A stretch of 64,000 nt of DNA from Tubulanus polymorphus (Eukaryota; Nemertea; Palaeonemertea; Tubulaniformes; Tubulanidae). The position numbers were made by a program, and so were the translations under genes. The DNA lies in the NCBI RefSeq assembly GCF_964204645.1, contig NC_134026.1, forward strand, positions 3,782,001-3,846,000, given 5' to 3'. Under the pieces are notes generated by a model. The model was not told where the DNA came from. It made no database searches and was given only the letters and a program-made list of their open reading frames with translations. Shown here one piece after another: positions 32,400 to 60,927 of the stretch. Each line of letters opens with the position of its first letter. Position 1 is the stretch's first letter.

Positions 32400-33261
32400 C
32401 GTGTACGTGTGCGACTCATACTCAACTAATGCTAAAAAATACAAACAGGAACTGGTAAACTATGAGTGTAACATTCAGAATAGAATTCTTGCAATTGCGT
32501 TTTATCTGTGACGTGCGTGATGTGGATGTTTTCACAGCAATTCAAAAATGCAATACGGGCAAATGTATATAATGCACAATACTTTTTAAATCTTTATAGG
32601 GATTGGACTCTCTTATTCATTTGATTGGTAGTTGATTTGATTCGTATTGCCAGTATTGGTTCGCTAACCCTTACAAACACATTTGCCGTGAGGAGAGCGA
32701 GACACTTGGTTCTAACTAAACCCTGAAAAACTACATTTGAAATATCATCTCATTAACAGTCGAGGATCATCCAGGATAGCACATTTTTTTTCTTAATTGA
32801 CCAAAATGCAACTCCGTGTGCTGGCACTGACTAGTGACTGACTGCCACTGGGGCCTTTAGACTAAAATTTAGGCCTACTAGTCCTACAATTAAACTCGGG
32901 GTAATTGTTCTGTAGTGCTGGTGTGTGAAGCCTAAATAGTATGCTATATACACTACTACAATAGTGTATTGTTGTCAATAATGTCAATGGCTGTTGTGTG
33001 TCCAGCTATAGCATGCTGGACGGAGTCGGAATTAACGCATAAAAATTGCATTTGATTGAAATTCAAGTCAGTGGCAAAATAAAGGCCGCGATAGATATAA
33101 CACAAACCCGAATCATAGGCATACTGCTGTTCTCGTCCAACCGCTTGCAGTACTTACAGTACTGTGAAGTGAAGGTATGTAGTAAGTGTGTGGTGAGCGT
33201 TACAGAAAACAAAATTCTTTACTCTGATGGTCGGATGTAATATTTAGAATGGCGGGAATTC

Positions 33262-33582
33262 AATCGTCACACACGTGCTCACCGGCCGGGATCAACCGTC
33301 ACGCACGTGCTCGCCGGGCCCAACCGTCACGCACGTGCTCTCACCGGCCGGGATCAACCGTCACTCGCGTGCTCACTGGGATCAACCGTCACACACGTGC
33401 TCACCGGCGGGATCAACCGTCACGCGCGCGCTCACCGGATCAATCGTCACCGTGCTCACCGGCGGGATCAATCGTCACCAAGCTCACCGGCGGGATCAAC
33501 CGTCACGCGAGCGCTCACCGGGATCAACCGCACGTGCTCACCGGGATCCCGTCATGCGCGTGCTCACCGGGCCGGGATCAAG
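33262..33582. repeat. GC-rich minisatellite with CACGTG cores
   Basis: About 11 degenerate units of 21-34 bp, consensus GTCACGCACGTGCTCACCGG followed by a variable GGGATCAACC. At least five units keep the palindrome CACGTG. The array stands out as GC-rich in AT-rich DNA, and all three forward frames stay open through it, so the apparent reading frames are artefacts. Confidence 0.85.
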
Positions 33583-35704: not shown

Positions 35705-36607
35705 ATGGTCCTTGCAAATGTTATTTTTGGAGTAAAGTGTGAAACGATGTCTACGACCTCACAAGAAAACGAAGACGAATTCTTAACAATCGCACCAGAG
35801 GTGAATTTCTATTTTTTTTGTAAAATTACTGGTCAAACCACATAGATGAGATTTAGATAGGTTTCGATTGGACTACCGATTCAGGAATATCTCTTCCGGT
35901 GCGTTCGTTTCGACCAGCGGCTCTGCCTATTCAGGAATAGCATAAACCTGATAGAAGCGACCGGTAGAGAGTTTGTGATACGGAATTCTATCCTTAAACC
36001 GAAATAAGTGCAACCGAAACCTGTCTGGATCCCATGAAATCCTCTTGAAATCAAATGGCCGATGAAATCATAGAACTCAAATCAAATTGATTTGAGCTCT
36101 ATGATGAAATCAAGTGTTAAAGTCACCAGCAAAGACGTGACGATGAAAAACCATTATTGAGAACAAATCGACACATCGATTTGCTGAAACGAATATTCGT
36201 CGAACACAGATATTCTTGTGATATTTTCTTTTTATCTTGTATCAGGAGAAAGAAGATGATCTTCTGGCTGACGGGTTGATGCAGAAACTGCAGCAACTTG
36301 TTGTGAAGCAAGGCGTCGATCTGTCGAATAAGACACAGACTCAGATGTTGAACGCACTTGAAAATGTCATTACCGAAAGCCATAACCCAGCGGTATGATT
36401 ACTTAAAGTTAATTGTACTTTCTCGAATTTAAACGTCGCCTGTTTCAACACGAAGAATGGATGATTTGATTTGATTTAAATTAGATACATATGTCACGCT
36501 CGACGGGGTTCGGCGCACATGTCGGAAATCAAATTATATCTCAAATATGTATCCGTTGTTATTCGCAGGCCAAGAAACATTTGCTCGGCGGCAGCTTGGA
36601 AGGATTA
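35705..36607 (+). other. Giant gene exons 1-3: start and pro-region
   Basis: Exons 35705-35800, 36246-36392 and 36569-36607, all phase 0, encode an acidic pro-region of 94 aa or less. The usual FxGD aspartate switch of astacin propeptides is not obvious; the nearest motif is LYEHD, spanning the exon 3/4 junction. The 5' end is unresolved. Confidence 0.6.
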
Positions 36608-39600
36608 GTACGTATATTATATAACCAAAACGATTTTCATCTTCCAATAATTCTTGATTTTTTCGAAACGTTCCTAAAAATCCAGTTCAACAAAGCACAT
36701 ATTCTCAATTTGCACCAGAATCTATCTGCGCATGTTAGCCAATTCTATGTACATTAACAGTGAAATCAAAATCAGTATGAATTTGTGTGTAGAGTTCTAC
36801 GCTCAGTCATTTTTTGAGTTTGAATTGATAGATTCTGTAGTGTTTGTTTATGCATTGGTTTTCACACGATACAACATAACAACAGCTCGTCCATCCTAGA
36901 ATCTGGGGCTGAGTATTTACCAAACTGTGTATAGATTCAGGAAAAAGGACCCCTTAAACCAACATCCATTCTATACGATATTGAATAATAAACAATTATC
37001 AATAGTTAGGTAATCATCATTGTGGGGCATGTTTCTATACCAGACGTTGTTACTGTTTCGTGTAAACACAGACCGTGAAATTTAATGATGGATGTTTCAA
37101 CGTTTTATGTAGTACGAACATGATTCGTCGATGATTCAAATTCGCCTCAACGACAAGAACCGAAAAATGCAGGAGCCATCGAAACTTTGGAAAAATGGCA
37201 TCGTCCCTTACGTTATTCTCGACAAAAGTCGGACCAAGAAACCGTTGACGCGGCATCAAAAGCGTCTGCTTGAAAAGACGATCAGATTCTTCGAGAGTAA
37301 AACATGTTTAACCTTTCCAAAGTGGTACAAAGGTTTTAACAAAGATCATAATCGCGACGTAGACGGTTATTTGAGATTTTTCCAAGGAGACGGGTAAGCT
37401 GGTTTCATAAAAAAATCGCGGCGAGGATTGGCTATTTATCAGTTAGAATCATTAAATTAAGCGTGACCTTTTCTATTGATATGTATAGCTGTTTCTCCGG
37501 GGTTGGAAATTGGAAATCAAAATACGGTCAACCGATCTCACCATGCGATCATATGGTAAGCTTGAAAGCTTGAAAATCATAATTCGCGTTATACATCACT
37601 AATGTTACTTCATATCATAAAACAGTTGAACAGTTTAAGGCTCACCGCATGTGCGACATTACGAGCTGTCATGATTGACCTCTCAGCTATCGTACAATGA
37701 TGGTAATGACATGCGATAATTGTCCTCATTTTGTAACCTTTATATAATACACGATGAAATAGTGTCTCCGCACAAGCACAAAATGACCACACTTACCACT
37801 GGGCGCTACCGTAACCAGTCCTTTTTCGACCGAATTGTACATATTTTTATCAATATACGTAGTGTACACCGATAAAGAAGGATATGATGATAACTATGAT
37901 ATCACGACACAATCACATGATATTTCATTTATACATTGCGGAAGTTTTCTGAAAATGTTTTCTTATGATTTCTATAGTCGACCGTGATGCACGAGATAGG
38001 TCATGCGATTGGAATGGAACACGAGCAATCCAGGCTGGATAGAGACCGTTATTTGAAAGTTTATCCAGAAAACTCCAGTACGTTGTATAAAGAATAGTTA
38101 GAATTGAAAAAAAATTATCGATTTGTATAGAAATCATTGCTGATCTGATAGAGAGATAGTTGGCGCATAGATTTTAATTAAAATTGAACTTGAAATGATC
38201 GAAAGTTCAATCACATATAATGCGATATTCTGACTGACTTGATCTCTTTTCATCATATATCTAATGATAGCAATTTGAGCTGATTGAATATATTTCTATA
38301 GAATTGACGATGAATAAGCACGGTGCAGCGGACACAATATTTGATCTATCTGCACCATACGACATGTCATCAATCATGCAATATGGATTATGGGTAAGAA
38401 GTTCAAAACTTAAAAATCAATAATGTAAAAATGTCGTCAGTTTGAAGCGAAAATAACTAAAACAGGAAATCTAGGCTAAAATATGGGCTACACAGTGAAG
38501 AATGAAGGTTTTGCTTTTTCAATCCATGAAATTTGATAAGACCGTGGTAGAATTGCTTCCATGCCTCCGTAGACCAGACCATCATCAAGGGCTGCCAACC
38601 TCTGAAAAGTGCTGTTAGTGACAAATTGATTTTTTCAGTAACATTTCATTCAAACGTGAAAGAAAGAAAAAATTCAGATTAATCAGTAATCAACAGCAAG
38701 ACCCTCAGTAACATCTTTCATATTTCTGTGTACATCAAACAAATCAAATCAGTCTTAACAAATACTGAAAATCAGGAAAAGTTGGCAGCTCTGATGATAA
38801 TACATGTATAACATGATCAGAATAATTTCCGCCCACTCATTGATTTATTTGCGAAATATCAATTGCCGATTTTATATTAGGATTTCAGTAAAAATGGTAA
38901 AATTGTCTACGATCCGAAAGACAAGTCGCAAAGATATTTGATCAAAAATAACGATGTGGTAACTTTTTATGATCGTATGTCCATTAATGCTGCTTATCAA
39001 TGTATAGGTAATTTGAAAGCTGAACCTGTTTTGCTTAAACCGCACAAGATGGATTATATTTGAATCCGTATATCTTATCTCTTTGCAATTTCGTATGCAG
39101 AATTGAAATGTCCCGACGCCAAAAAGTTGAAATGCAACAACGAAGGATTTTTTGGTTACGAGGAAAATACGTGTAGGTGTATTTGTCCAGAAGGATTGAT
39201 GGGCCCAACCTGCGATGAACTCTATAAACCGAGTAAGTGAACTAACTGACTATATTATACTGAACATCGTTGAAGCGCAATATTTTCGAAACATGATGTA
39301 TGTGCGACCTGCAGGAAAGATGCCGGCAAAATGGCCGAAAGGGTCCTATGGTTTACCCATGACCGAAGAGAAATGCATCGACGAAACGTGGATGACGGGT
39401 AGTTTGAAAGAACATATCGTGAAAAGGACGGCGCCGGAAGAAAAACTAGATGAACTAGATGGCGACGATGAACCTCAGTTTGTTAACGTGTACGCAAGGA
39501 GCAAGTTTACCCCGTGGCGATATTGTATGGCGGGTGATTTGAAGATCGATTCGTCGTATGACTGGCCTCCTGGATTCTACTGCATATACAAATATGGTGG

Positions 39601-42600
39601 AGATTGTCCTTCAGGTCAGTACAGTGTGTATGCAAATCATACTTAAGTCGTGATCAATACGTATCACCGTATGAAATATTTTATTTTTGTAGGTTTTTCG
39701 AAAGGAAACCTACAATTTGGCAATACGGATAAGACAGGGGAAGGAGCAATACCAGATGGGCAACAACTTAATAGCACGGTTCAAATCCAGTTTTGCTGTC
39801 GGTCAGACGGAATCTTTACGAGTGACAGAATACTACTACCACGTCAGAAACCATTTTTCTTGTTCCAAAAGAGTTCAGAATGCCAACAAGTCGAAGGTGA
39901 AATATAGATGAAAAAGTATTTCTGCCGAATAAAGAATTTTCATTTCAGCCCTTTCCAAAGTGCACATAAAGTTGCAACAGCGTGGTACTCGTAAACTACC
40001 AAAAGTCATATCACTATTTTCACACGTTAAGTAATCCATCAAAGTATTTGAAGCGACAACGAATATGTAACTATGCCGTAATGAATTGAGTCATTCTTAA
40101 AATAGATATTTATTCGCATGATTACAGGAATGCACGTGAAAAGTGATTATCATGATTTTGCAAACAAGAACTACAGCATTTCCGGTTCTCATCCTTACAT
40201 CACAACTTGGCGCAACAAACTACAATTATACCACTGTTCCTACGTGCCTTTTGATAACGGTAATTTCCCAACTACTTCATAATACCATCGATATCATAAC
40301 GAAATAGCGTATGGTGGATTTAGCGAAATTTTCGATTTCAGAATGTGGCGGTATGATAGATTTGACGAAGGAACAGCGCGAACACAGAATTACCTCTCCT
40401 GGATATCCAAACCAACTTGGTAAACATATGAACTGTTTGTGGTTTATCAAGGTAATTCTCAAATTATCTTGACATGACTGGTGTGTAAGATAAATAGGAT
40501 TTACGAATAGTTCCTATTGGCCTGGCAAGAGAATTGGTCTGGCAGAATGAAAAAGCCATTTTTTTATTGATATCTTGGGTAGAAATTCAAATATCTACCG
40601 CTAATCATATTCTTTTTGACAGGGTGCAGAGCATTCAATCATACGCGCGGATATAGATTTACTTAACTTAGAACGAGATTCGTCAGGAAAATGCACAGAA
40701 AACTATCTGGAAATCAAACGGCACCGTATTGCACAGCCCGGAACGAGGTAAATACTAGGAAAACGTTTACAAGCGAATTAAGATATAACGATTTACATTC
40801 TAGATATTAGAGAGGTCAGCCTGAATTGGGTTCGATATTAATAGACATGGTTCATTTTCGACTACAGGTACTGTGGGAATATGCAGGTTATGAAAAGCTT
40901 CGTTACTACCACGAATTATCTGATGGTACGATTATCAACGTTTGGCGATGCCGACAACAATAGGGGATTCTCTATGAGAGTTCGACAACTAACTGGTATG
41001 AAAACGATCGTGACTAAACATATATTTTGTCAAGCAAACAAAAAATTCAAGATAACAACTACGATGAACAACTAACCCAAACATGAATTGTGGATTTTTT
41101 TAAATGTTTTCCAGCAGAAAACGATTTCTGTTATAATTACCACGATTCCGGCGCATCATACAGGGGTACCGTCAACTTAACACAAAGTTATATGCCTTGT
41201 CTCAGCTGGGATAAAGTTACTCATTGTCCCTACCACACGTTTATTCCTACGTAAGTGACAGAATAAATCATAAAATTAGATAACCTCCCGCATCAATTTG
41301 AATATTTTCGCGAACAAAATTTAGAGCAGATGAATAGATTGTCCGATTGTTTCGTTTTGAAGCGGATTCTACTCGGGTTTGGAGGGAAATAATTACTGTC
41401 GAAACCCTGGCAATCTGCCAGCTCCTTGGTGTTACATACAAGCAGAAGACTGCAAACAGGATTTATGCGACGCTTGTCAATTTCGTAAGTTTGGAAAAAA
41501 TTGTTTTCGAAAACTCAAATCTCTCAATAAATATCTCAACTCTCGAAGTATTTATAATTTTTTTTCAGGGAAATGTTTAGATTTGTGGGACAACTGCGAG
41601 GAACTCAAGGGCGATGTTGATTATTGCACATTGGACCCTACGGCTAAGATAGGATGCCGAAGATCGTGCAATTTATGCAGAACAGAAAAATCACGTAAAT
41701 TAACAGGTATATATTTATTTTTCATACACAAAAAATATGTTCTTATCGTTTCGTTCTTTACTTGGATATGATCAACTATTTATTGAAGTGTCCCGAGTCA
41801 CATTTCCGTCCCTTAGAAATACAAAAAGATGTTTCCGTATGTACGGTATCTCATCAGGAGATTATTGACATTTTTCCGTATTTTGATAACAGATGTATAC
41901 ATTTTCCCTGTTTTCTTATTACAGAAATCCGATGTAAACGTCCAGCGATACCGAATGATAACACGCGATACATTTTACCAATAAAAAACTTGTACAGCGT
42001 CGGCGAAAAGATCTTTTACAAATGCGTTAAAGGAGATGGTCATTACAAACAAATCTGTTTGAGTGACGGTACATGGAGCTGGACGGATACAATATGTTCA
42101 GGTTAATTACGAGAACATTTTTTTTCACCAAGAATTATTATTCTTCAAGACTAAGCGAACTGGACATCAATTAGTATGATTATAGTTATGGATGCATATC
42201 TAAATCCATTACGGGTATCTTTTTTAATTCAAGAATGCGCTGCCGGGTTCCATCAAATCGGTAGAAATTGTTACCGAATCGCAACGGATTATGGCATGGT
42301 GCTAATCGACGAGGCAGAAAGTATATGTGCAGCTATGGGTTACCATCTAGTGACGATTGATAGCAAAGAAAAAATGGATGAAGTCAGAAAAGTAATGTAC
42401 GTCAATCGTATAAACGTACTTCGTTTACCATTCATTTAAACTATTGCTGATTTAGGTTCATAACTAAACGAAGTCAAGCAGATCTAATGATGGCCAAACC
42501 CTTTTAAATCTAGAACCGATCGATTCATAAATTGGAGTTTTCCATACGGCTTGTATTTCTAGGACTAACGATCGCTCGACAGCTGAAGCGTATTTCATTG

Positions 42601-45600
42601 GTCTGAAAAGAACCGCGTCGAATTCTAAGACTTTTCGTTGGATGGATGGTTCACCGGACAACGGATACGAAAACTGGATGAGAGGTCAACCTAACAATTT
42701 CAATGGACAGCAGGACTGTGTACAAATATATCGAGCTAATGGTCTCTGGAACGATGTACCTTGTTCATATAGCCGTCATTTCATCTGCGGAGGTCTTGCA
42801 GCAAGTATGTTTCATAGCTGACTGTATTCGTTTTTATTCAAGTATTTCTGATCCAGGAATGATAAGCCATTATCATAAATTGAATGATTATAGAAAACGA
42901 AGGCACGTGTGAAGATACTCTGAAGAATTGTCCGGAATTCCTCAGCAAAAATCCGGACACGTGCATTAAACACCCAGAATTTGCAAATGTTAAATGTCGC
43001 GAGAGTTGTGGATTTTGTATCAATGAACTTAAAGGTAAGATTTCAAAACACAAGAAGTCTAAATATATGATCAAGATACTAATAGTAGCAAATTGGTTGT
43101 ATTATAGATCGAATAACATGCAGTCAAGCGGGACAAGGCAATGATGCTAAATTACTTAACGAAACGATTACAACTTTCCGAATCGGACAAACCATAGTAT
43201 TTGAATGTAATGATGGCTATAAACTAACCAGCGGCGATCTGTTTAGGGTTTGCCTTCCCAACGGTAAATTCTCCGGTGAAATTCCAACGTGTAAAGGTCA
43301 GTATAAACAAATTATGAAAAATGATGGAAATAGTTCAAATCGATAAATCGGGATGATTGTTATTCATTAAGAATACGGATGTTTCAAAAATGTCATATTT
43401 GCTAAGACTATAAAATTAATTATCTGAAACGCTCCGTACTAAACTTTACGAACGGAATCGTCTGGTCACACTTTTTCCAGATGAGAAATCTGTACCGTTT
43501 GTCGTTGGAAGTCTTGTAACTGCGAGAAGATACAGAAATAGCCCAGGGGCAGCATTCGTTGATACGACCAATAGAATTGTCAACGAAGGCAAAATCGTAT
43601 CGTGGACATTCTACAGCGCCACCGATGGAGACATTTTTTTACAAGTAAATGATCATTTTTTGTAAAACGTCCTGGGGACAGATTTTGTAAGAAAAAAATG
43701 CTATCGAGGTTTATAAACCAAGTTACTAACTCGGAATAAACTAGTTATCTCAATGTAAAGGATTTTACCGAAGTAGTTCATTCCGATCTAGCTTACTGTA
43801 CTTGGAATTATCCTCCAAAATAGCTTTCAACTGAGAGAACTAGATGTTTTTTTTACAGTATGTTCCCACGACGCGTCTACGGCAGAGCATAGCGACCCAA
43901 TGATTTTTTTCTAAATTCGAAATTTCGGCTCAATGACTCGAAATGTCGGAAAAAATCATAGGGTCGCTGTGCTCTTCCGTTCCGTACGCTTCTGAACATA
44001 AAGTAGATATACGCCGAATATCTTTGTTGTAGATCTGGCGTGAAAATAGCAATGGCAGTTTTACTTTGGTGGGCCAAAATAAAATACAAACGTATAGAAA
44101 TCGGAAAATGACAGTTCATGTGCACGAGGATGAACAAATCTACGCCCAAAAAGATAACGTAATCGGCTTCTTCTCGATGAACGGTAGCGGATCCAGTATC
44201 TCTTATGATGCGTGTGTCAATGAGTTCGTAAGCAACTTTAAGCCTCACATTTACAGCATGGATTATTTCAACGCCGGGAGACCGATGGTTGTTGAGACGC
44301 CATTCAAATTCACATTGATAGGCGGGGCTTGTAGAAATTATTCTCTGCAAGCCAAAGTAATTCCGGGTATGTTATTAACCCGCTTCCACATATTACCTAA
44401 CTTAGCTGGACATCAGCGTGATTACTATTATTAAGATTATTAAGTTACGACCGTAGAACTGGCTCCGATAGCCGCAGTTCCAGGAGTGGAACTTGATTAC
44501 AGTTATATCGCAGATATACTATTCTCAGATATTTTCGCAATAAGATTCCCGTTATTATATGCAATAATCTCTCTGTAGGTGTCGTGAAGATGAGTTGCTC
44601 GATTGGCCCAGCACCGACGAATGCTCAAGTGAACGTTACTGGCACAGTAGATGTGGGCGCACGTATTCTTTACTCGTGCAAAGATTACTACCGTAAAATG
44701 AGAGGGAATATACTCAGAATTTGCAAAACAGGAGGAATTCTATCGGGAACGCCGATCGCCTGTGAATGTAAATATCCGTGTGTACGGCACTTCCAACATA
44801 TCGTTTAAATAATAGCCTTTATTTCTAGCTATTTATATGTAACAAGAAAATTTTTTTTGTTGAAACGAAATCAGAATCACACTATTATACATGAAATCCC
44901 CACGCAGAAAGAAAATCGAGTCCAAAACGGTTTCCTTTAGATATTGATTTATTTTCTAACGTCTGGGCGATACCCTAATAGTCCTCTTCAGTAATACTAA
45001 AATTAATGTTCCTTCGAATTTATTCAAGACATGAATCCGCTTTCAAACGAATGGATTTTGTTCGGGAAGCGATTTTACAAGCCGGTGATAGCAGCTGTAA
45101 CGTGGGAACAGGCGACTGGTTTATGCGCAATAGAAAATGCGTTTCTTACAACTGTTATTAATGATAAACTCATCTTCAAACTGAAAACTCGTCATCTTCA
45201 CGCCGGCCGATACTGGACCAGCGCGCGCGGTGATGGTAAGTCTAGCCCGTTAGTTATGGGTATTTGAGGTCTATGCGGTTTTTTTAATTCAAATAATTCT
45301 ACGATCTTTAGGAAATCGATTGTCATTGTCGGACTCGTCTGCTCTGGAGTATTCCCAATGGGAAAATGACGTGCCAATGCATTTTCCAAACACATCTTGT
45401 GTTACAATCAATCATCAGGGGAAACTGTCAGCGGAGCTCTGCACCTCAAATGCCGGATACATCTGCGAGAAGAGACACGGTAAAATATAGATTCATTTTT
45501 ATGTTCTGCTTTGTAATCTTTAGACCAATGTGTGAAAATAATCGTCATCATCATTTGACCCTTCTTTTGGATTATTAGTTTGTCCTTTCGGGTTTGTCCG

Positions 45601-48600: not shown

Positions 48601-51600
48601 AAAGCAACTTAGACGAATACTGTGTCCGCGCGGGTGAGATGCCGAGACCGTATCGCGGTCACCTATCTCATACGAAGAACGGTTATTCATGTCAGCGATG
48701 GTCGGAGGAATATCCGCATAAAAAATCGAGGACAAGACTGATAGATTCGAATTACGCCGACGGATCCAAAATGGCTGCTGCAGATTATTGCCGGGCGTTC
48801 CCCAAATCGAAAAACCCCTGGTGCTACACGTTGGACAAGAAGAAAAGATTTGACTACTGCGACCCCGTTACATGCGGTAAAACGTCACGATTAGCAGATT
48901 GAAACTTGTTCCATAGAAATTGATTAGTTGTCACCTTATTCAGATTTATTTACAGAATCCGGAATGTCATACTGCCATCCACCTCCCGTTCATCGTAACG
49001 TGGCCTTAGAGCCGAGAAAACTGGTCTACAGATATGGCGACCAAGTACGAGCTAGCTGCAAATTCAATGGCACATTGCACGGCGGAAGTACTCTCCGCTG
49101 CCATGGAAATAATATTTGGTCAGGTCTGTCTCAAAGATGTACCTATACCGATGGTGGTAAGTCAGTGCACATATAAGTTATTTAATATCTTTTTTGCGTA
49201 GTGCATCCTCAAAGAAATAAAGAAATACTTGCGTCTCTTCTGAAAATCAAATGCGTGCGTGCTTAATCCAATAACTGTATGAATGTCAATGTAATTATAA
49301 AATGTAGACCAAAGGCGAATTAATTGCATACTACCGAATGACGAAGATGCTTCAGAGTTTATTGGAACCAATGATGTGACTATTGACGGTTATATTTGTC
49401 AACGATGGGACTCGCAATATCCACACAAACACACTAGAACTGATAAGTCGTTTCCATTGGATGGTTCTGCTAAAGCTGCGAGTAACTATTGCCGATCCGT
49501 TACTGAATCAAGGCCTTGGTGTTACACGCTCGACAGCAAAGTTCGATGGCAATTCTGTGACGTCCCCGTTTGTGGTATGATGTCTTAATTGATGAACTTG
49601 TTACTGTGTGTGTGTGTCGTAATTCTTCGTGAAAATATATATATATATTCGTTCCTGTTCTTTCTTTCAAGAAATACCGACCTGTCGCGTTCCGCAATTT
49701 GCCAACGTGACCACGACGGCGGCGGAGAATAAGCAACTGATTCTGGAAGGAGATGACGTCACGATGACGTGTCAAAATGGATTCTTCCCGGATGACGATT
49801 CCGCAAAAACTATTCAATGTAATGGATCAGGCTTGTTCTCCGGGAAGCCGAGGCGGTGTATGGGTACGCAGAACAATGAAAGAATCTACTTCAAATCTTT
49901 TTTTTTTGTTTTCGCCTGATTTGCCGAGCAATCAATCATAACTTGATGAGTTCTGATGTGAAGCATCTTTCCCAAACACAATTTCTAAAATAAAAAAAAA
50001 TTCTTATGGTGTTGCTAGGCCTGCATTTTTTGGACTTAGAATTGTCGAATTTAAAAATGTCAATATTAAAGAAAAACGGACAAATTTCAATCGTAAGAAT
50101 ATCTATAACCTACGTATTATGAACTTTAAGTTTTTGAACAGGCAGTTCTAAATAAGTTTTCAACACCTCAAAACTCTTCGGGTTTGACGCTTGTGTGCCA
50201 TATTTGCTGACTTTTTTAAGGTTCTGATATGTTCACGTGCGTGGTTGACGTACCGTCTGGTAGCGTGGCAAACACTTCCGGTCGCGTATGGATCGGAACA
50301 TCGGTCAAATATTCCTGTAAACAGTATCAACTATACATTGGTGGTGACGAAATCCGAAACTGCGAAAAGTCTTCGCTGAAATTATCTGGCACACCGATAA
50401 TTTGCCGAGGTAAAGTTCTGCTTAGTGTTTTGCATTTACTACTTGTATTCATTCAATTATTAGCTATATATGATTTTTAATTGTTTAATTTGTTAATCAA
50501 TTGCAAAATATTCATTCCAGACTTTATCACAGAACAAATTACTTACGTTATTGAATAGATAAAACTAAACCGATTGATACATCGTTTCGTTTCAGAAATG
50601 CCTGAACGATGTCCACCGGGATGGGTAATGATTGGACAACACTGTGTTATTGCGGATTTTACACCACAAACCTGGCTCGAAGCGGATAAAACTTGTGCCG
50701 ATGAAGGCGCTTTCTTAGTCAAAATAAACGACGATAAACAAAATGAAGATTTGGCTCAATACATATCTGACTTGAAGAACAAAAAGAACACCAAATTCGT
50801 GGTAAATGGTTTTTGGATTGGGGCACATGGTCAAGGTACGGTAGTTCCTACTAAGTACTTAAATTGATATTTTCAAAGAAGTTCCGTATTTACTTAGAAG
50901 AAACCGCTTCAAATCATTACAGTTGTTTCATCGACCAGCGAACTGGTTTACGCTGATGGTAGCGCGTTAGGTTTTACGAAGTGGTCAAAACCTCCTAGTG
51001 CTGGAACTGCAAACAAAGCCGTAGTTATTGATTATGATGGAAATTGGAGTCAGGAAAAACGAAGCCATGGAAATGGTGCCATATGCCAACTCCCAATAAG
51101 TAAATGCTGCTCGCCGAGTGAACCATTAAGAACACTCGTTTTTCTCAATCTTTCTTGGTCATTTCTTGGTTTTATCTATAACAAAATGAATGATAATATT
51201 GATTGAGGTATACAGTGATAAGATAATGTTCTTTGTCGTGTTTAAGGTTGTCCAGGAGGATTTTCTAGTCGTAGAAATACGTGTTACAAGATATTTACAA
51301 CCGCGAAAAATTGGATGGAATCAGAAAAAACATGCGTCAAATACGGAGGACATCTACTCACAATTGTAGATTCGGAACAAAATGAATTCTACAAAACTAT
51401 TGCGTGAGTTACTTGAAAGTGGCTTGTTGAAATATTCATCTTCATTAAATTAACAGTTTATGAAATTCTATTTCAGACAAAATTATGGCAACAGTGTTTG
51501 GATCGGTTTCAACGATATCGAGAAAGAAGGTGATTTCGTTTGGAGTAGCAATACCGACGTAGTTTATACAAACTGGGGAAAATATTGGGGCAGTTACGCC

Positions 51601-54600
51601 CAACCGTGGACCAGGGGCAAACTAGCCGGTGACTGCGTTGTGCTTAGCAAAGAAGGCAAGATGAAGTATACTTGGGATGATATTTCGTGCGAAATGAAAC
51701 GAGCATTCATCTGTGAAATTCCACACCCTATTCAAGGTCATCCTTAGTGTTTCTTATTCTCTGGAGTCTTTATAATATTGACGGAAGTATATAATGAATC
51801 GCATAGATATTTTATGTTTTTATGTGAATGTATTTTCATAGAAGCTGCCCCGTCTGGCTGTACCAGCCCACCACTTCATTATAATGTCATTCAACAGTCC
51901 CAACAGAAACGTGACTACGGAATTGACGAGTCAGTTGAAGTTAAATGCGCTCACGGTGGAACGCTCGTGGGCGACGTGAAAATAATTTGCTACGGCAAAA
52001 ATATCTGGTCCAGTCTCTCGCAAAGTTGTACCTTCGATGAAAAAGGTAGCAAAATACTGATAGCGTTTTAAGATTTAGATCGATATTTTTAAATTTCCAA
52101 ACATTAAATTTTCAAATTTGTTTCCGTTAGAGAAAAGGAGGAAAGATTGTGTGTTGCCGACGGATCCGAATTTTTCGAAATTCAACGGCACCAATTCGAT
52201 TACCAGCGACGGATACATATGTCAACGTTGGGATTCTCAGAAGCCGCATTCGCACAGTCAAACCGATAAAGATTTCCCGTTAGACGGTTCAGCAACTGCG
52301 GCTAATAATTTCTGTCGTCCAGTTGGTGGCGAATCTAAACCTTGGTGTTATACCACTAATCCAAATATAGAAAAACAGACTTGTGACATTCCAGTTTGTG
52401 GTATGTAAAATGATGTGATAAAATGGATTCGTTGTCACAGTTTAATTGATCTACTATAGGGTCCAAGTTACACCACGTTTTGACATGTTACAGAATATTT
52501 ATACTTGGAGATGTATTTGTGCTCTAAAGTCATTTACTCAATTATATGTTGATCAAGTTGGTTCCCGGCATATTGAATGAAGTTTGTGAATTGAAAATTG
52601 AAACATTTTCCCTTTGTTACAGATATTCCGACGTGTCGTGTACCGGACATCAGTAACGTGGAGATAGCCGGTGGGAAAACCATCGTACTAGCCGGTGAAG
52701 AGGTACAAATGGTGTGCAAAGATGGCTACTTCCCTGAAGAAAATACTGGCGATAAATTGACGTGTACTGAAAACCGCGCGTTTACAGGAGAACACAGAGT
52801 CTGTCGAGGTATTTTTTTTTCTAACTGTTAAATCTTAACCAGTTTATACGCTATCTTAGCATAGAACTCATGATTGTAGATGCAGTACTTAGTTCGTAGT
52901 TTCGATGAAGCTCTGTAGCATTTTCCCAATTTTTTAAATGTTTGTTGTCATTCTAATGGCATGGACACGTATCCCCAAATTTCGTCTGATATGCTAGACT
53001 TTTTTCACAAGGAGGTCAAGAACATTAGTTTCAATAAACGGCGCATTATATTCTTTTCCTTAGCTAGTTAATATATTTACCTTTTCGTAAATCAAAACAA
53101 AAAGTTTTCACATTCAGGATCATCAGCATTTTCCTGCCCTATCGACATTCCTCGTGGTAGCAAAACAAACGTTACTGGGTCCGTGTGGGTCAAAGATTCG
53201 GTAGAATATTCGTGTAAACAATACAAAATGTATAAAGGCGGTGATAAACGTAGAAAATGCGGAAAACCTCCGACGCTTTCAGGAAAGCCAATTATTTGCG
53301 AAGGTACGAAAAATCTTTATGAATATTTTAGCCAAAATGTATTCCAGAGTTTATTCAAGGACAAATTGCTGACGTTATTGAATTATTAAAGTTAATTTAC
53401 CGATTGGTGCATCTTTTTGTTTCAGAAATGCCTGAACGATGTCCTCCGGGATGGGCAGTGATTGGACAACACTGTGTTATTGTGGATTTTACACCACAAA
53501 CCTGGCTCGAAGCGGATAAAACTTGTGCCGATGAAGGCGCTTTCTTAGTCAAAATAAACGACGATAAACAAAATGAAGATTTGGCTCAATACATATCTGA
53601 CTTGAAGAACAAAATGAAGAACCAATTAGTGATAAACGGTTTTTGGATTGGGGCACATGGTCAAGGTACGGTAGTTCCTCCTGAGTACCTAAATGGATAA
53701 TTTCCAAGAATTGATTTAAAGTCCCGTATTTACTTAGAAGAAACCCCTTCAAATCATTACAGTTTTTTCATCGACCAGCGAACTGGTTTACGCTGATGGT
53801 AGCGCGTTAGGTTTTACGAAGTGGTCAAAACCTCCTAGTGCTGGAACTGCAAACAAAGCCGTAGTTATCGATTATGATGGAAATTGGAGTCAGGAAAAAC
53901 GAAGCAAAGGAAATGGTGCCATATGCCAACTACCAATAAGTAAATGCTGCTCGCCGAGTGAACCATTAAGAAAACTCGTTTTTCTCAATCTTTCTTGGTC
54001 ATTTCTTGGTTTTATCTATAACAAAATGAATGATAATATTGATAGAGGTATACAGTGATAAGATAATGTTCTTTGTCGTGTTTAAGGTTGTCCAGGAGGA
54101 TTTTCTAGTCGTAGAAATACGTGTTACAAGATATTTACAACCGCGAAAAATTGGATGGAATCAGAAAATACATGCGTCAAATACGGAGGACATCTACTCA
54201 CAATTGTAGATTCGGAACAAAATGAATTCTACAAAACTATTGCGTGAGTTACTTGAAAGTGGCTTGTTGAAATATTCATCTTCATTAAATTAACAGTTTA
54301 TGAAATTCTATTTCAGACAAAATTACGGCAACAGTGTTTGGATCGGTTTCAACGATATCGAGAAAGAAGGTGATTTCGTTTGGAGTAGCAATAACGACGT
54401 AGTTTATACAAACTGGGGAAAATATTGGGGCCGTTACGCCCAACCGTGGACCAGGGGCACACTAGCCGGTGACTGCGTTGTGCTTAGCAAAGAAGGCAAG
54501 ATGAAGTATACTTGGGATGATATTTCGTGCGAAATGAAACGAGCATTCATCTGTGAAATTCCACACCCTATTCAAGGTCATCCTTAGTGTTTCTTATTCT

Positions 54601-57600
54601 CTGGAGTCTTTATAATATTGACGGAAGTATATAATGAATCGCATAGATATTTTATGTTTTTATGTGAATGTATTTTCATAGAAGCTGCCCCGTCTGGCTG
54701 TACCAGCCCACCACTTCATTATAATGTCATTCAACAGTCCCAACAGAAACGTGACTACGGAATTGACGAGTCAGTTGAAGTTAAATGCGCTCACGGTGGA
54801 ACGCTCGTGGGCGACGTGAAAATAATTTGCTACGGCAAAAATATCTGGTCCAGTCTCTCGCAAAGTTGTACCTTCGATGAAAAAGGTAGCAAAATACTGA
54901 TAGCGTTTTAATATGTAGATCGATATTCTTCGTTTCCAAATAATAAATTTTCAATTTGTTACCCTTAGAGAAAAGAAGGAAAGATTGTGTGTTGCCGACG
55001 GATCCGGATTTTTCGAAATTCAACGGCACCAATTCGATTACCAGCGACGGATACATATGTCAACGTTGGGATTCTCAGAAGCCGCATTCACACAGTCAAA
55101 CCGATAAAGATTTCCCGTTAGACGGTTCAGCAACTGCGGCTAATAATTTCTGTCGTCCAGTTGGTGGCGAATATAAACCTTGGTGTTATACCACTAATCC
55201 AAATATAGAAAAACAGACTTGTGATATTCCAGTTTGTGGTATGTAAAATGATGTGATAAAATGGATTCGTTGTCACAGTTTAATTGATCTACTATAGGGT
55301 CCAAGTTACACCACGTTTTGACATGTTACAGAATATTTATACTTGGAGATGTATTTGTGCTCTAAAGTCATTTACTCAATTATATGTTGATCAAGTTGGT
55401 TCTCGGCATATTGAATGAAGTTTGTGAATTGAAAATTGAAACATTTTCCCTTTGTTACAGATATTCCGACCTGCCGTGTCCCGGACATCAGTAACGTGGA
55501 GATAGCCGGTGGGAAAACCATCGTACTAGCCGGTGAAGAGGTACAAATGGTGTGCAAAGATGGCTACTTCCCTGAAGAAAATACTGGCGATAAATTGACG
55601 TGTACTGAAAACCGCGTGTTTACAGGAGAACACAGAGTCTGTCGAGGTATTTTTTTCTAAATATAAAATCTTAACCAATTCTTGCAATGTTGTAGATGTA
55701 CAACTTAGTTCATAATTTCGATGAAGCTCTGAAGTATTTTCCCAATTATATTGATGTTTTATGTCATTCTAATGGCATGAACACGTTTCTTCAAATGTCG
55801 TCTGATGTGGTGGATGTTTTTCATCAGTAGGAGCATTTTTATCTATAAACGAAGCACTAGGTATGCGAACCTTAGCTACTTAATGCATTTACCATTTCGT
55901 AAATCAAAAAGTTTTCATATTCAGGATCATCAGCGTTTTCCTGCACTATCGACATTCCTCGTGGTAGTAAAACGAACGTTACTGGCTCCGTGTGGGTCGA
56001 GGATTCGGTAGAATATTCGTGTAAACAATATCAAATGTATAAAGGCGGTGATAAACGTAGAAAATGCGAAAAACCTCCGACGCTATCAGGAAAGCCAATT
56101 ATTTGTGAAGGTACGGAAAAGTAGATACCCATACAATCTAGATAACGAATTACTTTACTGATACATTGTTCTAAATTCCAATTATTCAATTTTTTGTACT
56201 AAGACATGGCGAATCGATGCCCAGCAGGCTGGGTAGTCATAGGAGACTATTGTATGACAGCAGACATTACCAAACATGATTGGGTCGACGCTGAGGAACT
56301 TTGCGCGCAGAAAGGTGGCTTCCTTGCTAAAATCACCGATGGTCAAATGAATAGTAACCTGAAAGCTTACATTAAGAATCAAGTTTCTGCTAGTTCTGTA
56401 AATGGATTTTGGATCGGAGCTCATGGGGAAGGTTAGGATTAATATCACTAACATGGGGACAGTTTCGACCATATTGGCTAGTAGAAACTTTCAATCGTCG
56501 AATTATTTTTCATTCTCTAGTTCAGTCCCTGACAACTAGTATACTAGTCTTCATGGATTCATCCCCGATAACTTATGCTAACTGGCTCCAAGCTCCAACC
56601 GGGGGATTAGCTAACAAAGCGGTTGTCATAGATAAACAAGGCAAATGGATCCTGACAAAAAGAACTTCTGAAACATTCGGAGCGATTTGTCAGCTTCCTA
56701 TCAGTAAGTGGTCTAGTAGAATTGAACCTTTACACGTCTTTTACATTATTCGATGATGCGTCTTCGTACTTTCAAGATTGCCCGGATGGTTTCACTGCTC
56801 GCGGTCGAATGTGCCACAAGGTTTTCACGGAGAAGAAGAATTGGAATGCCGCCGAAACAGTTTGCAGTTCATACGGCGGTCATCTCATCACAATTCTCGA
56901 TACAAAAACAAATGAATTCTACAAAAGTATCGCGTAAGTCGACTGTTACGTCATTACAGCCTTGATTTCATAGCTTTTTGCGATTATAAACACTTTAAAA
57001 AGTTATATTCGTTACAATTTCATAACACATTTCACGCATATCAATGTTAGTTACCGTGAAATACTCCACATTTATAAATTCTTACATATCATCTAATTCC
57101 AACATTGCGCTATTTCCTTACTCGTAGAAGAAAGCTCGACTCCTCGGTTTGGATCGGCCTCAACGATATAACGAAGGAAAGCATTTTCCGGTGGACAAGC
57201 GGAAAGACGTTCGAATTTTCGGATTGGGGCAAATATTGGAAGACTTACCAACAGCCGTGGGCTCGAGGTTCCCTGTCTGGTGACTGCGTCGTTCTGAGCA
57301 AAGAAGGTAAGATGAGGTACAGGTGGGACGATGTAAAATGTACAGAGGAGCGGTCTTTCATTTGTGAATTAGCACATCCGGTCGCTAAAGGTATGTCTAT
57401 GTGAATAGTTCGGAAAAAATCGGAAAATTGAAAAAAAGAAATTTTTTACTATGATATTTCATATGATTTCGTTGTAGATTCTTCGCCGTCAATATGTCAG
57501 TATCCACCCTTGCATTATAACGCCATCTTACAAACGAAGAAACGCATTTTCGATGTCGGTGAAACGGTCCGGTTAGCTTGTAGAAACTACGGTACTGTAA

Positions 57601-60600
57601 TGTGGGAGAAAAGTATCACGTGTTATGGCAACGACATATGGTCGAGTTTGTCTCATCGGTGTAATTATACGTTGGGTATGTTACCGAATACAATCTTCGC
57701 TATCCATCTTGTCAAAGTAGGAAACACTTTCCTCGTAGCTGAATATCTTTTATATCTGGGATTTAATGGTTTAGAACTCCGTACTTAGTTATTTGTAGAA
57801 ATTCTCCAGAGAAACGCTCACATTACCGCGTGTGGTAGTTCTTGAACGCAGTGGGTTTTTGTTTAGGATGTAATACGTTTTCTTTTCCAAGAACAAAAGC
57901 TGAAAACATGTGTGCTGCCGACGGATCCGAATTTTTCGAAATTCAACGGCACCAATTCGATTACCAGCGACGGATACATATGTCAACGTTGGGATTCCCA
58001 GAAGCCGCATTCGCACAGTCAAACCGATAAAGATTTCCCGTTAGACGGTTCAGCAACTGCGGCTGATAATTTCTGTCGTCCAGTTGGTGGCGAATCTAAA
58101 CCTTGGTGTTATACCACTAATCCTAATATAGAAAAACAGACTTGTGATATTCCAGTTTGTGGTAAGGTTTTTTTAATTAGTTTGTAGAGCTTTTAAATGA
58201 GATCAGACCTTTTGAGCTATTTAGTTTAGTTAGTTTATGTAGTTTAGTTTGTGTATATAGTATAGTTCTGGTTTCAGATCGTATGGGTTTCGATTTAGTA
58301 AAAACTAGTTCTATTTACTAATCGATTACGTATTAGAAATTACAAAAACTGAACATGTGTCAATAAGACATACCATGATTTCAGATATTCCGACCTGTCA
58401 GGTTCCATCAGCGGCTAACATTACAGTCGCTGAGAACGACGTGATTGTATTAGAAGGCGAAAAAATAACTGTTAGGTGCGATAAAGGATTCCATCCAGTT
58501 GATGACATCATGGAAACTGAATTAACATGTCTAGGAACTGGTAACTTCTTGGGAAAAATGATAAAGTGCTTGGGTATGTAACACGAAGAGATGGAGAGAA
58601 GAGATGAACTTCCTGCATCGATGTACCTGAAATTAAGGACAACGATTGTGAAATGTATTTCCTAGATAATGCTTATTTAAGCAGAGAATTTACATTACAG
58701 GGCCCGATATGTTCCAATGTAAGATCGACGTACTTCCTCATAGTCAGACATCGATGTCGGGCACCGTTTGGGTCGGAAAATCGGTAAATTACAAGTGTCA
58801 TTCGTATTACTTGTACAAAGGAGGTGATCGAGTCAGAACGTGCCAGAAAGAATCGCTGAAATTGTCAGGAACGCCGCTCATATGTGAGGGTAAGTTATAG
58901 CAATGAATAGTAAAAGCAAAGTTATAAAAAAAATAAAAAATTTGATATACAAATGGATATGTTGTTTGTAGAGGATCCCGATCGGTGTCCGCCGGGATGG
59001 GCTTTGGTGGCTGAACGATGTATCATAATCATTTCTAACCCACAATCGTATGCAGCGGCTGATTTAGCGTGCGCGGGTAAAGGTAGTTTTTTGATGACGA
59101 TTCCAAATTCAGAAATACAATCCGAAGTCGATTCATATCTTTCGACGCATACGAACCAAAATGCCATCGGTGGTTATTGGACTGGAGGACACGCTGAAGG
59201 TAATTTATAAGGTTATAACATCTCGGCCACTTCGTAAACCTGTTATTGAATTAGAATGACACCAACTGATGATGACAGTTAAACTCTAATGACTTGTGTT
59301 ACTCTTTATTTGATGTGATGAATTTCGTGTCGATAGGAGGTAAATGGTCATGGGCAGACGATGTTGCTATCGCCTACACGAACTGGAAGGTAAAGCCAAG
59401 TGGACAGATCGCTAACAAGGCAATCGCGGTTGATAACACCGGAAAATGGATGGCAGTCTCTACGAATGCGAACAATATGGCTGCTATTTGTCAGTTGCCT
59501 GCTGTCGGTAGGTTCTGGAGAAGAGCAATTTGATGAATATTCGCCATTTTTGATACAATATAACGTTACACGAAAATCATGGAGGGATGGGAATAAGTGT
59601 CACATTTTGTCGCCGCAACGATTCGATAACATCAGAACAGTTATTGTGTCTGTATCGTATTTTGTTGAATAGATAAATGTAATAGAGACAATGTGAGATG
59701 ATATGAGATACGTTACATTGTCGCATCATGTTACAGCCAAAACGCCCTTCGTAAAGCTCTTTTATGCGATTTGGCATAAACAATTTGAGGAAAAAGTTAT
59801 TGAAAAAATTTGTAGGTAATGAGTCTAGACTTACAAAAGTACTTCCTCGGAAACGTGTTATATATTCATGTGCTCAATCTGTGAGCAAAATATAGACTAG
59901 TATCCTATTTGTTCCAGCATGTCCAGGTGGATTCACAGATTATGGTAGCGTATGTTACAAGCTGTTTACGGCGATGAAGGACTTCGCTCTCGCGGATGAG
60001 ACTTGTCAGATGTATGGCGGCCATCTTGCTTCAATACCCGATTCGAAGACGAATGAATTATACAAAAACGTTGCGTAGGTTTTTTTCCACACCGGTATAT
60101 ACTGCAGATCTTCCGACTGAAAAAAGCGCATTTTATTCATTAGATTAGGTTAACATTGAAAATACGACAGTTCAATATGCAATCATTTCGTTTGTAGCAA
60201 AGATTCAGGTCAAAGCGTGTGGATCGGAGCCAACGATCGTGCGACAGAAGGAGATTTCGTCTGGACTAGTGGCAAAACTTTACAGTTTACTGACTGGGGT
60301 AAATACTGGAAAACGTACCAGCAACCGTGGACCAGTGGTTCGTTGTCTGGCGATTGCGTCGTACTCAGCAAAGAAGGCTGGATGAAATATGCGTGGGATG
60401 ATATCTCGTGCGCGTCAAAGGAAGCTTTTATCTGTGAAATTCCTCGTCCGACTGAAGGTATGTGAAATGTTTTGTCTATTCTAACATGGTCCTGGCAACC
60501 AACTCGTTTCTGCAACTTTTTAAATATTCATAACCGAATACACCCGCACTGATCGTTATATCCATTTATTCTGAGTTTTGGTTTCAGGTTCTGAGGAAAT

Positions 60601-60772
60601 CTGCGGGCGTCCTTCACTTCACTTCAATATCGTCTCAAATTCCGAGAAAACTGTTTTTGAGATAGGTGAAAGTGTGAAGTTTAGTTGTAAAACCGGAAAT
60701 CTAGTCGGCGATCAGAGTCTCGTCTGTAATGGAGGGAATATTTGGTTGGGAATTCCTCCAACCTGCCATTAA
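35705..60772 (+). CDS. Giant astacin-ApeC-CUB-kringle-CTLD-sushi protein
   Basis: A single model of 71 exons (13,500 nt, about 4,499 aa) runs in frame to TAA 60770-60772. Order: pro-region (1-94), astacin protease (about 95-316), EGF-like (317-360), ApeC (361-572), CUB (573-693), kringle (694-778), ShKT, sushi, CTLD, ShKT, sushi, an unidentified domain (1125-1290), then sushi, paired CTLDs, kringles and repeated cassettes. Totals are 1 astacin, 1 EGF-like, 1 ApeC, 1 CUB, 7 kringles, 2 ShKT, 18 sushi and 13 CTLDs. Modules are bounded by phase-1 introns, and introns are short (mostly 100-700 bp), which argues for one gene. The first residues ([13 protein letters not shown]) look like the end of a signal peptide, and TTTTTAG lies just before, so a first exon is probably missing. 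Secretion is inferred. Function is unknown; sushi/lectin/protease clotting and complement factors are the nearest analogy. Exon lists are in the module entries. Confidence 0.85.
36068..36103. repeat. Short inverted repeat in intron 1 of the giant gene
   Basis: CATAGAACTCAAATCAA faces TTGATTTGAGCTCTATG, an almost perfect 36-bp hairpin. Role unknown. Confidence 0.5.
37113..39007 (+). other. Giant gene exons 4-8: astacin (M12A) catalytic domain
   Basis: Exons 37113-37393, 37489-37555, 37978-38077, 38302-38393 and 38881-39007. The domain opens with [11 protein letters not shown]. It has the complete zinc site [12 protein letters not shown] (residues 215-226) with catalytic Glu, and a Met-turn SIMQYG with the family tyrosine. 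Four cysteines (CLTF, GCFSG, SPCDH, YQCI) match the two conserved disulfides. All key residues are present, so an active zinc endopeptidase is predicted. Confidence 0.93.
38581..38798. mobile_element. MITE-like element in intron 7 of the giant gene
   Basis: Ends are inverted: ATCATCAAGGGCTGCCAAC at the left and GTTGGCAGCTCTGATGAT at the right. About 218 bp, AT-rich and non-coding. Confidence 0.55.
39101..39232 (+). other. Giant gene exon 9: EGF-like domain
   Basis: Six cysteines in the pattern [26 protein letters not shown] phase 1-1 exon directly after the astacin domain, as in many invertebrate astacins. Confidence 0.8.
39315..40259 (+). other. Giant gene exons 10-12: ApeC (apextrin C-terminal) domain
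   Basis: Exons 39315-39614, 39693-39896 and 40128-40259. It starts with [15 protein letters not shown], continues [20 protein letters not shown], and has the CC pair in [10 protein letters not shown]. Exactly eight cysteines fit the ApeC pattern. In amphioxus, ApeC proteins bind bacterial peptidoglycan; ligand binding here is inferred. Confidence 0.8.
40342..40995 (+). other. Giant gene exons 13-15: CUB domain
   Basis: Exons 40342-40451, 40623-40747 and 40868-40995. [33 protein letters not shown] and RYCGNM are CUB landmarks, with four cysteines. Astacin-EGF-CUB order recalls tolloid/BMP1-type proteins, with ApeC inserted between. Confidence 0.85.
41118..41484 (+). other. Giant gene exons 16-17: kringle 1
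   Basis: Exons 41118-41250 and 41363-41484. [27 protein letters not shown], then [20 protein letters not shown]. Of the seven kringles this is the only one split by an intron and the closest to the classical consensus. Confidence 0.88.
41569..41706 (+). other. Giant gene exon 18: ShKT domain 1
   Basis: [27 protein letters not shown] gives the six-cysteine ShKT pattern common in invertebrate astacins. Two donors in the same phase are possible (after 41693 or 41706). Confidence 0.8.
41925..42101 (+). other. Giant gene exon 19: sushi domain 1
   Basis: [36 protein letters not shown]: four cysteines and the conserved Trp of a CCP/sushi module. Confidence 0.85.
42234..42792 (+). other. Giant gene exons 20-21: CTLD 1 with QPN motif
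   Basis: Exons 42234-42396 and 42563-42792, joined in phase 2 using a GTACGT donor. [15 protein letters not shown] starts the domain; [20 protein letters not shown], then [27 protein letters not shown] end it. It has QPN at the sugar-selectivity site and the WND calcium-binding motif, making it the most classical lectin domain of the protein. Confidence 0.88.
42894..43296 (+). other. Giant gene exons 22-23: ShKT domain 2 and sushi domain 2
   Basis: Exon 42894-43034 has [31 protein letters not shown] (ShKT). Exon 43108-43296 has [40 protein letters not shown] (sushi). Both are phase 1-1. Confidence 0.82.
43481..44366 (+). other. Giant gene exons 24-25: unidentified about 165-aa domain
   Basis: Exons 43481-43644 and 44033-44366. 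Beta-rich sequence with [20 protein letters not shown], then [12 protein letters not shown] and two widely spaced cysteines (DACVNEF, GGACRNY). I do not recognise the family. The phase 1-1 outer boundaries show that it is a separate module. Confidence 0.6.
43879..43980. mobile_element. Foldback element in intron 24 of the giant gene
   Basis: ACGGCAGAGCATAGCGACCC and its inverse GGGTCGCTGTGCTCTTCCGT bracket about 102 bp. The stem extends through an AATGATTTTTT/AAAAAATCAT stretch to about 30 bp. Confidence 0.6.
44579..46076 (+). other. Giant gene exons 26-30: sushi 3, CTLD 2, CTLD 3
   Basis: Exons 44579-44767 (sushi), 45029-45235 and 45312-45479 (CTLD 2), 45579-45729 and 45817-46076 (CTLD 3). 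CTLD 2 keeps the inner cysteines (SCVTI, LCTS). CTLD 3 has [37 protein letters not shown] and WDDISC. This is the earliest sushi-CTLD-CTLD run of the later cassette. Confidence 0.82.
46414..48512 (+). other. Giant gene exons 31-37: kringle 2, sushi 4-5, CTLD 4-5
   Basis: Exons 46414-46692 (kringle, six cysteines, [15 protein letters not shown]), 46793-46993 and 47069-47254 (sushi), 47334-47564 and 47661-47831 (CTLD 4), 47985-48141 and 48253-48512 (CTLD 5). CTLD 4 lacks the inner disulfide; CTLD 5 keeps it (GDCVVL, WDDIRC). Confidence 0.82.
48595..50409 (+). other. Giant gene exons 38-42: kringle 3, sushi 6, kringle 4, sushi 7-8
   Basis: Exons 48595-48876 (kringle 3), 48956-49156 (sushi 6), 49308-49574 (kringle 4), 49672-49863 and 50221-50409 (sushi 7 and 8). 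Both kringles keep six cysteines ([15 protein letters not shown] and [15 protein letters not shown]). The kringle-sushi-kringle order departs from the standard cassette. Confidence 0.82.
50596..53303 (+). repeat. Tandem duplication copy A (giant gene exons 43-50)
   Basis: Exons 50596-50835 and 50923-51099 (CTLD 6), 51247-51403 and 51477-51736 (CTLD 7), 51842-52045 (sushi 9), 52131-52400 (kringle 5), 52623-52808 and 53118-53303 (sushi 10 and 11). Exons and most introns are nearly identical to copy B, offset by 2,807-2,840 bp. The repeat extends into the intron before exon 43. Confidence 0.92.
53426..56110 (+). repeat. Tandem duplication copy B (giant gene exons 51-58)
   Basis: Exons 53426-53665 and 53763-53939 (CTLD 8), 54087-54243 and 54317-54576 (CTLD 9), 54682-54885 (sushi 12), 54969-55238 (kringle 6), 55461-55646 and 55925-56110 (sushi 13 and 14). 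It differs from copy A by scattered substitutions and small indels; the final intron has diverged most. Both copies keep an open frame. Confidence 0.92.
56204..57390 (+). other. Giant gene exons 59-62: CTLD 10 and CTLD 11
   Basis: Exons 56204-56431, 56521-56703, 56777-56933 and 57128-57390. The first starts [14 protein letters not shown] and lacks the inner disulfide (LANKAVVID). The second has [15 protein letters not shown] and keeps it. These are clearly diverged from the preceding tandem copies. Confidence 0.82.
57478..58889 (+). other. Giant gene exons 63-66: sushi 15, kringle 7, sushi 16-17
   Basis: Exons 57478-57675 (sushi), 57892-58161 (kringle 7), 58385-58573 and 58701-58889 (sushi). 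Kringle 7 is almost identical to kringles 5 and 6, while its neighbours are diverged. Confidence 0.85.
58972..60772 (+). other. Giant gene exons 67-71: CTLD 12, CTLD 13, terminal sushi 18
   Basis: Exons 58972-59199 and 59337-59507 (CTLD 12), 59918-60074 and 60198-60457 (CTLD 13), 60588-60772 (sushi 18). The protein ends two residues into the codon run after the last module position, PPTCH then TAA, so it stops one residue past the final sushi cysteine. Confidence 0.83.
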
Positions 60773-60921: not shown

Positions 60922-60927
60922 AATAAA
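60922..60927 (+). terminator. Poly(A) signal of the giant gene
   Basis: AATAAA about 150 nt after the stop codon, in ACAATAAAACTGC context. It is well placed for 3' end formation. Confidence 0.6.

Follow-up and report, generated by a model that had tools for sequence, protein, structure and literature searches.

A predicted 4,504-residue ApeC-astacin protease, longest of the modelled forms in a family of seven loci

Introduction

Among the described proteins most like the one analyzed here is P-vulgata_14 of the limpet Patella vulgata, a 1,113-residue single open reading frame (ORF) on a contig without a start codon, predicted to be secreted and listed as 'peptidase_M12A, ApeC, CUB, Kringle, SUSHI x2, C-type lectin-like, ShKT' (PMC7333891). 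According to the excerpted report, it was found by mass spectrometry in bulk pedal mucus only, and its authors proposed an antibacterial or defensive role and named no reliable homologues beyond hypothetical proteins (PMC7333891). Kringle, C-type lectin, sushi, ShKT, and CUB are among the astacin accessory domains in the Figure 1 legend of an astacin review, a legend in which ApeC is not listed (PMC9848320). ApeC proteins of amphioxus and molluscs have been described as binding microbes or peptidoglycan (PMC8361754, PMC9585378). Here, we analyze a predicted gene at positions 35705–60772 (+ strand) of a 64,000-nucleotide stretch of contig NC_134026.1 (hereafter the window). We read it, with a probability of roughly 0.6, as the longest of the modelled forms in a probably lophotrochozoan family of secreted 'ApeC-astacin' proteins with seven loci, acting as a surface-tethered, defensive or mucus-remodelling protease.

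Like P-vulgata_14, the window protein combines M12A, ApeC, CUB, kringle, sushi, C-type lectin-like (CTLD), and ShKT domains in one chain, but it comprises 4,504 residues with 7 kringles, 18 sushi domains, and 13 CTLDs, against one, two, and one in the limpet protein as listed (PMC7333891). It shares an N-terminal astacin domain and CUB, ShKT, sushi, C-type lectin, and kringle modules with the ShKT-bearing and multidomain astacins of PMC9848320, and differs from them as described there by its ApeC domain, great length, and repeat array. By description, it also resembles the complex mollusc ApeC proteins of groups 8 and 9, in which ApeC stands amid >10 extracellular domains or motifs (PMC9585378). 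An initial annotation of the window had called the linkage of astacin, kringles, and lectin modules undescribed; since PMC7333891 reports it and PMC9848320 lists kringle and C-type lectin among astacin partners, the kind was already known, and the present analysis adds the great length, the array of repeats, and a family of seven loci.

Results

Starting from the raw window, the gene was rebuilt by a simple Viterbi model of splicing and codons, followed by correction by hand. It assembles as 71 exons and 4,504 codons ending in a single TAA stop (60770–60772), in agreement with the roughly 4,500 residues, 71 in-frame exons, and one stop initially annotated. All 70 introns are GT-AG and span 73–505 bp, most of them in phase 1 (53; phase 2, 10; phase 0, 7), and an AATAAA at 60922–60927 (+), 150 bases 3' of the stop, is a candidate polyadenylation signal. 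The coding/splice score was 590.4 on the + strand vs 3.3 on the − strand and ≤6.1 in 30 dinucleotide shuffles, although the scoring model was trained on these same exons and therefore favours the + strand. A chance or pseudogene chain was rejected on the intact frame and on nonsynonymous divergence (dN) below synonymous divergence (dS) in both comparisons made (see below). Exon 1 of the model (35705–35800) holds the start of the predicted prodomain and, in all probability, the latter portion of a signal peptide: '[13 protein letters not shown]' resembles a signal peptide end, and an AG resembling an acceptor stands before the ATG. The signal peptide seems to be split, its start probably sitting in an upstream exon. 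About 119 residues lie N-terminal to the catalytic domain match.

Domains were assigned by Pfam on spliced pieces covering exons 1–39, 48–52, and 71 of the 71. Exons 2–8 (36246–39007) encode the predicted prodomain and the astacin catalytic domain (PF01400, 4.3e-34), whose matches in the PDB are meprin, BMP1, and astacin structures (best E 6.3e-16). The zinc site is intact, as first annotated: the [12 protein letters not shown] site ([17 protein letters not shown] in its longer form) lies in exon 6, with the SIMQY Met-turn in exon 7, so that both HEXXHXXGXXHE and SxMxY, the marks of Astacin (M12A), are present. An EGF-like domain (exon 9, 39101–39232, below the Pfam cut-off) is followed by ApeC (exons 10–12, 39315–40259; PF16977, 1.7e-34), which has the eight cysteines of such domains (counted in the translation). 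By eye, the window ApeC contains no DXED motif; these motifs are described as only relatively conserved in ApeC proteins (PMC8361754). Then come CUB (exons 13–15, 40342–40995; Pfam, 6.5e-14), kringle 1 (exons 16–17, 41115–41484), split by an intron as at six other loci, ShK 1 (exon 18, 41569–41706; no match in the Pfam scan), and sushi 1 (exon 19, 41925–42101; 20.3 bits, cut-off 20.7). CTLD 1 (exons 20–21, 42234–42804; QPN/WND) was matched by Pfam, as were ShK 2 and sushi 2 (exons 22–23, 42894–43296), the exon 22 ShK barely above the cut-off. A domain that we call X (exons 24–25, 43481–44366) and sushi 3 (exon 26, 44579–44767; 17.9 bits, below the cut-off) complete the core.

The tail begins with CTLD 2 and CTLD 3 (exons 27–30, 45029–46076; Pfam) and continues in five units. 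Unit 1 (exons 31–39, 46414–49156) reads kringle (KR)-sushi-sushi-CTLD-CTLD-KR-sushi; units 2–5 each read KR-sushi (SU)-SU-CTLD-CTLD-SU and occupy exons 40–47 (49308–52045), 48–55 (52131–54885), 56–63 (54969–57675), and 64–71 (57892–60772, including the stop). The whole gene encodes one astacin, one ApeC, one CUB, two ShK domains, 7 kringles, 13 CTLDs, and 18 sushi domains, and the last three counts match the initial annotation exactly. Four of the seven kringles were scanned spliced and all four passed the cut-off (1.4e-17 to 5.1e-14); unspliced at the genome level, six of seven passed, and the split first kringle did so once spliced. All six scanned CTLDs of the 13 passed (3.5e-23 to 1.1e-7). 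Nine of the 18 sushi domains were scanned, of which those in exons 19 and 26 fell below the cut-off and that in exon 50 had no separate Pfam match. Exons 9, 18, 19, 26, and 50 were assigned by homology to sister modules or loci, and the remaining module copies by hidden Markov models (HMMs) made from this gene's own modules.

Genome searches with Astacin, ApeC, and kringle, together with tblastn and HMMs, found six further loci on four contigs that keep the core order: A (C2, 2.15 Mb), B (C11, 7.61 Mb), C (C11, 7.62 Mb), D (C6, 20.2 Mb), E (C5, 6.2 Mb), and F (C2, 29.98 Mb). With tblastn and HMM evidence combined, astacin (AST)-EGF-ApeC-CUB-KR-ShK-SU-CTLD-ShK-SU-X-SU was recovered at all seven loci, with one extra kringle at locus A. 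The astacin exons of C and F were not among the matches listed in the genome Astacin search and were recovered by tblastn; the first kringle of F, dropped by an overlap filter in the HMM pass, was recovered by a tblastn/motif check. Module counts are limited to those backed by tblastn or HMM, the per-locus models carrying spurious terminal exons, and modules of D were partly doubled in the HMM pass where the automatic model split them. HEXXHXXGXXHE is intact at 7/7 loci and the Met-turn was found at six, that of D not being recovered; the automatic gene model of D leaves out the zinc-site exon. The family analysis comprises these seven loci, with three extra ApeC loci set aside.

Tail length past the core ranges from none to 45 exons. 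At locus E, a stop codon directly follows sushi 3, which means that a core-only form exists. The tails of B, C, and F consist of kringle and sushi modules, that of D of CTLD, kringle, and sushi modules, and that of A of the same three plus two extra X domains. The 45-exon kringle/sushi/CTLD array of the window gene is the longest modelled form. Loci B and C (C11:7.58–7.64 Mb) are close paralogues in opposite orientation, with ~12 kb between their zinc-site exons. Across 25 equal-length exon pairs (1,435 codons; exons lacking a partner of equal length were excluded), dN was 0.056 and dS 0.215, and in the protease exons dN was 0.118 and dS 0.877 over 128 codons. The pair evolves under purifying selection. 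At locus B, ~17 kb without homologous exons splits off part of the tail, and the distal portion may belong to another gene. Inside that gap (L013, ~3842–4411) lies an open stretch of 190 codons whose cysteines resemble those of a zinc ribbon, perhaps derived from a mobile element.

Domain X, missed in the initial annotation, spans 166 residues and occurs at all seven loci, with extra copies at A. It is split by an intron in the window, and single-exon copies exist at loci A, B, C, E, and F. No Pfam family matched the window copy or any of the seven aligned members, and the X profile had no significant match in the PDB (best E 0.15). The excerpted domain list of P-vulgata_14 does not include it (PMC7333891). 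Weak matches (E 1.4e-4 to 0.0066) occur at five other genome sites outside the astacin family (C5:2848150, C6:2935814, C6:2925685, C9:15663557, and C4:22935632).

Judged by its module order, the window gene is lengthened by repetition of the KR-SU-SU-CTLD-CTLD-SU unit. A 2.8-kb tandem duplication (50504–53313 and 53333–56120, + strand) shows 93.7% identity over 2,825 bp, with dN 0.018 and dS 0.057 over 552 codons and seven introns that are 79–100% identical (92% overall). On this divergence, the duplication is recent. The unit-5 kringle exon (57892–58161) is nearly identical to that of unit 4 (54969–55238), with 94–96% identity to units 4 and 3 and 59% to unit 2; each of the other unit-5 exons shows 47–69% identity to the corresponding exon of unit 3 or unit 4. 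The kringle identity ends at the 3' exon–intron border, and on the 5' side part of the initial ~20 exon bases already differs, a pattern that looks like exon-limited gene conversion.

Upstream of the gene, a tandem array (33260–33581) consists of overlapping units of 28, 62, and 83 bases. Neighbouring genes, named by eye without a family search, resemble a nuclear receptor (2626–4422, − strand), a mannosyl-oligosaccharide glucosidase (5726–8535, +), a glycerophosphodiester phosphodiesterase (~19.8–22.2 kb, +), and an SH3/SH2 adaptor (26–30.8 kb, −). Elsewhere in the genome, a single, compact Hox cluster (C6:5318228–5634747) has 10 homeobox matches in ~316 kb in one orientation. Its homeodomain flanks resemble Lox5, Lox4, and Lox2, signatures that we take to be lophotrochozoan. 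For COX1, likewise sought in the assembly as a taxonomic marker, there was no match.

Discussion

In the mechanism that we propose, the zymogen would reach an epithelial or mucus surface by secretion and lose its prodomain. ApeC, the array of sushi and kringle modules, and those CTLDs that retain a strand motif of the calcium type may then tether the enzyme to bacterial walls, glycan surfaces, or the mucus gel, confining proteolysis to the bound surface. Duplication of tail units would raise binding avidity or widen the ligand range while leaving the enzyme unchanged. The most likely role would be defence together with upkeep of mucus or the apical matrix.

In CTLDs, EPN/QPD is the usual motif linked to sugar binding and WND/WDD the calcium-type strand motif; a D-x-D/E acidic pair marks lysine-binding kringles, and a Lys-Tyr pair is the feature of ShK toxins. 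The WND/WDD strand motif is kept in the seven odd-numbered of the 13 CTLDs and absent from the six even-numbered ones. None of the seven window kringles carries the acidic pair, whereas DNE, DGE, or DVE occurs in part of the kringles at loci A, B, and C. The toxin pair is absent by eye from both window ShK copies, as it is from the limpet ShKT (PMC7333891). Several points weigh against our reading. At the usual EPN/QPD position, six tail CTLDs have QPT, QPH, or QPW and six have no motif, which makes sugar binding uncertain. A complete signal peptide is absent from the gene model. The likeness to P-vulgata_14 lies in the listed domains, the limpet order being that of the list, and any orthology is putative. 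Finally, in the limpet in situ hybridizations, 5/16 probes gave a specific pattern and P-vulgata_14 was not among them in the excerpted text (PMC7333891).

A protease of the same build could instead act as a matrix-processing enzyme that cleaves its owner's secreted matrix (adhesive mucus, cuticle, or shell matrix), the tail binding host glycoproteins with no part in defence. We consider this possible, if the less expected outcome. Astacins such as BMP1/tolloid do process matrix. The limpet protein was found in adhesive mucus (PMC7333891), and ApeC and Astacin are among the expanded families linked to oyster larval attachment (PMC10225672). However, the limpet authors prefer defence, and the ApeC cases tested in the excerpted reports bind peptidoglycan or microbes (PMC7333891, PMC8361754, PMC9585378).

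The region is very probably one gene: the core order recurs at dispersed loci, the limpet protein is a single ORF, and the introns are short and in phase. Recurrence of the core order at six other loci is the best in-silico support. It is improbable that a core-only ApeC-astacin gene (35.7–44.8 kb) is followed by a separate kringle/CTLD/sushi gene (45–60.8 kb), although several observations speak for such a division. The short forms, locus E and P-vulgata_14, end about where the window tail starts, the donor at 44767 (end of exon 26) is weak (score 3.2), AATAAA/ATTAAA signals occur at 45847 and 46153, upstream of the first kringle of the tail, a hydrophobic ATG ORF lies at 45450/45501 near the tail start, and the ~17-kb gap interrupts the tail of B. 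In addition, the tail junctions are supported by splice signals and phase only, and the gene finder over-joins: it also fused the upstream glucosidase-like gene (5.7–8.5 kb) to this one, so joining by the gene finder is no proof of a single gene. Against a division, exons 26 and 27 are just 261 bp apart in phase 1, no AATAAA/ATTAAA occurs in 44.77–45.84 kb, and the ORF at 45450/45501, read unspliced, overlaps exon 28 in a different frame and then meets a stop. Five of the six sister loci continue past the core into kringle, sushi, or CTLD modules.

The initial annotation had inferred a secreted recognition protease or a clotting/immune scaffold, with Factor C of horseshoe crabs as the nearest concept. 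The first part, a recognition protease from one gene, is supported, if short of proof, by the core order at six loci and the limpet ORF. In Factor C, too, a single chain unites a protease with recognition modules; its serine protease lies at the C-terminus, and to our knowledge it contains no astacin, kringle, or ApeC domain. A clotting or Factor-C-like immune cascade scaffold is very unlikely, and we discarded it because of the types of kringle and protease present: sushi, lectin, and protease do share one chain, but the protease is a metzincin and not a serine protease, no trypsin/serine protease or LCCL matched by Pfam in exons 1–39, 48–52, and 71, and no window kringle has the acidic pair. 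We prefer a surface-tethered protease over clotting because the kringles lack the acidic pair, the ShK domains lack the toxin pair, and 7/13 CTLDs have WND/WDD.

With these results, what was one row in the proteome of limpet mucus becomes a gene family of constant core and variable tails, with an extreme of 4.5 kilo-residues. They also bring to notice an uncharacterised domain, X, common to all seven members. More speculatively, and rather against the odds, the seven surface proteases may form a lophotrochozoan family that couples a constant enzyme core to a fast-remodelled recognition tail, shaped by unit duplication and exon-limited gene conversion, and that carries a new conserved domain where core and tail meet. 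The length of the tail and its range of ligands would then differ from locus to locus, and perhaps among individuals, as a diversifying system of recognition and proteolysis. If tail copy number does differ among individuals, the family would offer a tractable case of recognition-array remodelling by exon-unit duplication.

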